The notes beneath the pieces are model-generated. The model saw nothing but the letters and a program-made list of their open reading frames with translations. It was not told where the DNA came from and did no database searches. From assembly GCA_029245785.1 (NCBI GenBank), contig JAQWOR010000066.1, forward strand, positions 1 to 64,000: 64,000 nucleotides of DNA, read 5' to 3'. Source of the stretch: Polaribacter sp. (lineage in GTDB: Bacteria; Bacteroidota; Bacteroidia; Flavobacteriales; Flavobacteriaceae). Shown one piece after another: positions 19,788 through 21,419 of this stretch. The translations under genes and the position numbers were made by a program. The first letter of the stretch is position 1. Every line of letters starts with the position of its first letter.

Positions 19788-21419
19788 ATGGCAAAAGACA
19801 TACAATTTGATGTAGATGCACGTGACGGTTTAAAACGCGGTGTAGACGCATTGGCAAATGCAGTAAAAGTAACTTTAGGACCTAAAGGGCGTAACGTAAT
19901 TATTAGCAAAGCTTTTGGCGCTCCAACAGTTACAAAAGACGGAGTTACGGTAGCAAAATAAATTGAGCTAGAGAATGAATTAGAAAACATGGGAGCTCAA
20001 ATGGTAAAAGAAGTAGCTTCTAAAACAAACGATTTAGCCGGAGACGGAACCACAACAGCAACCGTATTAGCACAAGCAATTGTAAAAGAAGGCTTAAGAA
20101 ATGTGGCTGCAGGTGCAAACCCAATGGACTTGAAGCGCGGAATTGACAAAGCTGTTGCATCTATTATTCTTGATTTAGACAAACAAGCCCAAAAAGTAGG
20201 GAATTCATCAGAAAAAATAAAACAAGTCGCTGCTATCTCTGCAAATAACGATAACGTTATTGGAGAATTAATTGCTACCGCTTTTGGAAAAGTGGGTAAA
20301 GAAGGAGTAATTACTGTTGAAGAAGCAAAAGGAACTGACACTTTTGTTGATGTGGTTGAAGGGATGCAATTTGATAGAGGTTATTTATCTCCATATTTTG
20401 TAACAGATGCCGATAAAATGATTGCTGATTTAGAAAATCCATACATTTTATTATTCGATAAAAAGATTTCCAACCTACAAGAAATTCTTCCAATTTTAGA
20501 GCCTGTATCTCAATCTGGTCGTCCGTTATTAATTATTGCTGAAGATGTTGACGGGCAAGCACTAGCTACCTTAGTAGTTAACAAATTAAGAGGTGGTTTA
20601 AAAATTGCCGCGGTAAAAGCTCCTGGTTTTGGAGACAGAAGAAAAGCAATGTTAGAAGATATTGCCATCTTAACTGGCGGAACCGTAATTTCTGAAGAAA
20701 GAGGGTTTTCTCTTGAAAATGCCACTTTAGACTTATTAGGAACTGCAGAAACCATTACCATTGACAAAGACAACACAACGATTGTAAATGGCTCTGGAGA
20801 CACAAAAACAATCAAAGCAAGAGTCAACCAAATTAAAGCTCAGATAGAAACAACAACTTCAGATTACGACAAAGAAAAACTACAAGAACGTTTGGCTAAA
20901 TTAGCTGGCGGTGTTGCTGTTTTATATGTTGGAGCTGCTTCTGAGGTAGAAATGAAAGAAAAGAAAGACAGAGTAGACGATGCTCTAAATGCAACTCGCG
21001 CTGCTGTTGAAGAAGGAATTGTTGCTGGTGGTGGAGTTGCTTTGGTAAGAGCAATCAATGTGTTGAAAAAAATCACAACAGATAATTTAGACGAAGTTAC
21101 TGGCGTTCAAATTATTGCTCGTGCAATAGAAGCTCCTTTAAGAACAATTGTTGAGAATGCTGGAGGAGAAGGTTCTGTGGTTATCAACAAAGTAATAGAA
21201 GGTAAAAAACACTTCGGTTATGATGCAAAATCAGACACCTATGTAGACATGCTCAAAGCAGGTATCATTGACCCTAAAAAGGTAACTCGTGTAGCTCTAG
21301 AAAATGCAGCTTCAGTTGCTGGAATGATTTTAACTACAGAATGTGCATTGATAGACATCAAAGAAGATACACCTGCTGCAATGCCTCCAATTGGTGGCGG
21401 AATGCCAGGAATGATGTAA
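19788..21419 (+). pseudogene. groEL: Chaperonin GroEL with an in-frame TAA at 19959-19961 (codon 58)
   Basis: [82 protein letters not shown]... same frame to ...GGGMPGMM; conserved Glu (VAKEIELEN) replaced by stop. Confidence 0.95.

Follow-up and report, generated by a model that had tools for sequence, protein, structure and literature searches.

The window analysed here, a 64-kb stretch of DNA within contig C69 of a draft assembly (2,294,282 bases in 81 contigs, 90.3% complete) whose best named matches point to the genus Polaribacter, carries groES and groEL next to each other on the forward strand. The groES gene (19445-19720), directly upstream of groEL, is intact; it was recognised as an open reading frame, aligned to its genus-mates, and named from its position and sequence without a family search. 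The groEL reading frame (19788-21419, forward strand; 543 codons including a stop at codon 58) was delimited by translation, a match to the GroEL family TIGR02348 and alignment to genus-mates. Read from the ATG at 19788, codon 58 is a TAA (19959-19961) in the context GTA GCA AAA TAA ATT GAG, beyond which the frame is open as far as the terminal stop at 21417-21419. Translation therefore verified both the in-frame TAA and the open frame to 21419 given in a preliminary description of this DNA; the stop is present in the deposited sequence and does not arise from a misread frame. The first in-frame ATG past it, a candidate re-initiation site, lies at 19989-19991.

The deposited groEL has, owing to this TAA, no uninterrupted frame from its native start. 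The part past the stop alone nevertheless scored 745.7 bits against the TIGR02348 cut-off of 582.1, and so qualifies as a GroEL equivalog. The read-through GroEL was aligned over its full length with solved GroEL chains, and Glu occupied the stop position in the two alignments printed. Searching the entire assembly with Pfam Cpn60 revealed one groEL copy, with one TAA inside it.

Comparison with relatives bore out the claim that the TAA replaces a conserved Glu, as all 29 genus-mate groEL loci compared carry GAA at codon 58 and have no internal stop. The gene otherwise resembles the type I chaperonin (TIGR02348) genes of Polaribacter and other Flavobacteriaceae in its groES-groEL order, its full-length frame and its 92-93% protein identity to the nearest genus-mates, but differs from every relative examined in having TAA at codon 58. 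Protein searches detected groEL in 391 of 400 genomes of the family, nearly all with a single match, and among roughly 150 matches listed from these 391 genomes an internal stop was found in this groEL only. When the DNA sequence surrounding codon 58 was sought as an exact pattern in the genomes of other species, no match was obtained. As far as could be seen from these sequences, the stop appears to be private to this assembly.

Another such stop, missed by the preliminary description, was identified in the same window by comparison of its genes with relatives. The clpX reading frame (50814-52052, reverse strand), both halves of which match the NCBIfam clpX family, is split at codon 297 by an in-frame TAA (51162-51164, reverse strand; GLIP*IIGR) where relatives have GAA, encoding Glu. 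The 64 kb thus contain two premature stops, each at a Glu kept by relatives, and in both genes the TAA is followed by ATT. Unique missense changes at otherwise invariant sites of the window were no richer in G-to-T or radical changes than those of relatives, in a test where few errors were expected and would be hard to see; this suggests that the overall error rate is modest. Two further features of the window were recorded. A large, repetitive, surface-type protein with repeats of ~252 bases is encoded at 2-3436 (reverse strand) and runs off the start of the contig, and an Rfam S15-Flavobacteria ribosomal protein leader was found at 42568-42633 (forward strand), just upstream of a short open reading frame at 42631.

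Scanning for stops was extended to 1.18 Mb of the assembly using codon-pair (hexamer) coding statistics followed by inspection, and yielded ~15 mid-gene stops, a hand-curated, unblinded count in which two or three cases are weak. Many candidates from the hexamer scan were set aside on inspection as ordinary gene ends or antisense frames. The clearest cases were groEL, clpX, purL, mfd, uvrA (two stops), a GldA-like ABC ATPase, glutamate dehydrogenase, aspartokinase, an RlmF-type methyltransferase, a pirin and a nuclease-like protein; the remaining three, in an FtsZ-like C-terminus, a DinB-like protein and a collagen-like protein, were weaker or recognised only by eye. Comparison with homologues indicated that in purL a TAA replaces the Glu of the NSEHCRHK motif (contig C38, 3968, forward strand), and that the two in-frame TAA codons of uvrA (contig C31, 6899 and 7907, reverse strand) replace a Lys and probably an Asp or similar residue. 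The residue lost in mfd was judged against a distant homologue to be Glu, while those lost in pirin and the nuclease-like gene were Leu and Trp, respectively, as compared with a finished relative, G020. The internal TAA of the GldA-like ABC ATPase (contig C11, 3735-4157, reverse strand) came to light in an ABC ATPase search of the assembly; the Walker A motif of this protein reads GKYT, not GK(S/T)T. All three stop codons, TAA, TAG and TGA, occur among the stray stops.

When G020, the finished relative, was put through the identical scan and inspection over 0.8 Mb, no clear mid-gene stop was found, and alignment of the assembly's proteins to this genome, over ~87,000 codons, did not bring to light any convincing internal stop. 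Isolated lesions of this kind, in conserved genes unrelated to one another, are therefore found together in this one assembly, at ~15 in 1.18 Mb against none clear in 0.8 Mb of the relative. Weighted by length, the difference of 15 versus 0 gives p ~0.0007, a guide figure only, because the count was curated by hand without blinding and contig C11 entered the scan because a prior search had revealed its stop. A possible association of stop density with short contigs (7 in 309 kb versus 7 in 851 kb, p ~0.05) came from a post hoc comparison and was not relied on.

Several explanations of the groEL stop were weighed against this background. The frame past the stop is fully conserved, and groEL and clpX share the TAA followed by ATT, as might be seen if TAA, or stops generally, specified an amino acid here through readthrough or recoding, giving full-length GroEL. 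Stop-reassignment and suppressor systems include codes in which TGA specifies Trp, and amber or ochre suppressor tRNAs; the present case is like these in that a conserved frame runs on through the stop, but differs in the respects that follow. Most genes of the window terminate normally at TAA, which ends 43 of its 53 open reading frames of 100 amino acids or more. No stop-reading anticodon was found in the ~90% complete assembly, where 29 of the 30 tRNA matches carry ordinary sense anticodons; a low-scoring partial tRNA match on contig C61 was not called by ARAGORN. Nor was any loss or change of release factors found, since three RF-1-family genes, two of them of release-factor length, have no internal stops. 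Across the assembly no one stop codon stands consistently for one residue: the three types stand in place of residues that include Glu, Lys, Leu and Trp, a mixture that speaks against one reassigned codon or one suppressor. Given also that such a stop is absent from the relatives examined, readthrough, one of the alternatives raised in the preliminary description, has next to no probability. Two others raised there, internal re-initiation and a second intact groEL elsewhere, fared little better. An in-frame ATG does lie nine codons downstream of the stop, but translation restarted at 19989 would yield a chaperonin shortened by 67 residues, a stretch conserved in relatives that takes in LGPKGRN and TKDG; from what is known of GroEL structure and function it is unlikely that such a protein would work as a chaperonin. 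The ~10% of the genome missing from the assembly leaves room for an unassembled second groEL supplying the function; yet the search of the rest of the assembly found none, and nearly all genomes of the family have the single match noted above. Neither version explains the stops in other genes, and together they hold only the slimmest chance of being right.

A different possibility is that the stops are real mutations of the sampled cells, belonging to a mutator or decaying lineage or to a single damaged cell in which many genes are broken. Stops spread across the genome, often at Glu codons, are what G-to-T damage or mutation would be expected to leave, and two of the broken genes, uvrA and mfd, act in DNA repair; the stops in these two may themselves, though, be errors of the same kind as the rest. 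The mutY and mutS genes are open, so that those two routes to a mutator are unsupported, and the non-stop divergence seen in the window is ordinary. GroEL is generally essential, and it is unlikely that a cell could live without it; groEL is single-copy here, and purL, clpX and others would have been lost along with it. We consider real mutations in the sampled cells a very unlikely source of the stops. The more specific idea that the Polaribacter sampled belonged to a lineage that was hypermutating or dying, in which numerous essential genes had been disrupted, perhaps following the loss of uvrA and mfd, is likewise very unlikely.

The stray stops in many unrelated genes of the assembly make a sequencing error, already the first suspect of the preliminary description, the explanation that fits the groEL stop best. 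Very probably, an erroneous base in the draft Polaribacter consensus produced this TAA, as one among roughly a dozen stray in-frame stops scattered genome-wide. Consensus base errors are a known kind of artefact in draft metagenome and single-cell assemblies, and the likeness here lies in isolated, stop-making substitutions that affect many unrelated conserved genes while the scanned part of a finished relative shows no clear case. Searches of the literature on stray stops in draft genomes, or on groEL readthrough, turned up no directly relevant work. Sporadic base miscalls from a low-coverage assembly would be the likely source; alternatively, a damaged or amplified template may have been fixed in the consensus, or a minority allele may have been taken up. 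The sequences show directly the stop, its absence from relatives, the lack of a second groEL in the assembly and the genome-wide load of comparable stops; how the stray-stop bases arose, and that the living population lacks them, we infer. One point against uniform miscalls is the recurrence of Glu at several of the replaced positions, a hint of a bias (G-to-T) in the error or mutation process. A pure G-to-T error signature was considered and set aside, as the missense changes of the window show no such excess and some other stops fall at Lys, Leu or Trp codons.

Because stray stops occur in many of its core genes, claims of gene loss or recoding drawn from this assembly are unsafe. If true, a groEL that tolerates a stop at codon 58 would challenge the essentiality of the chaperonin, but the evidence points away from this. 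Most likely, the stop represents not new biology but base errors of a draft genome, and the groEL of the living organism presumably encodes an ordinary full-length chaperonin with Glu at codon 58.
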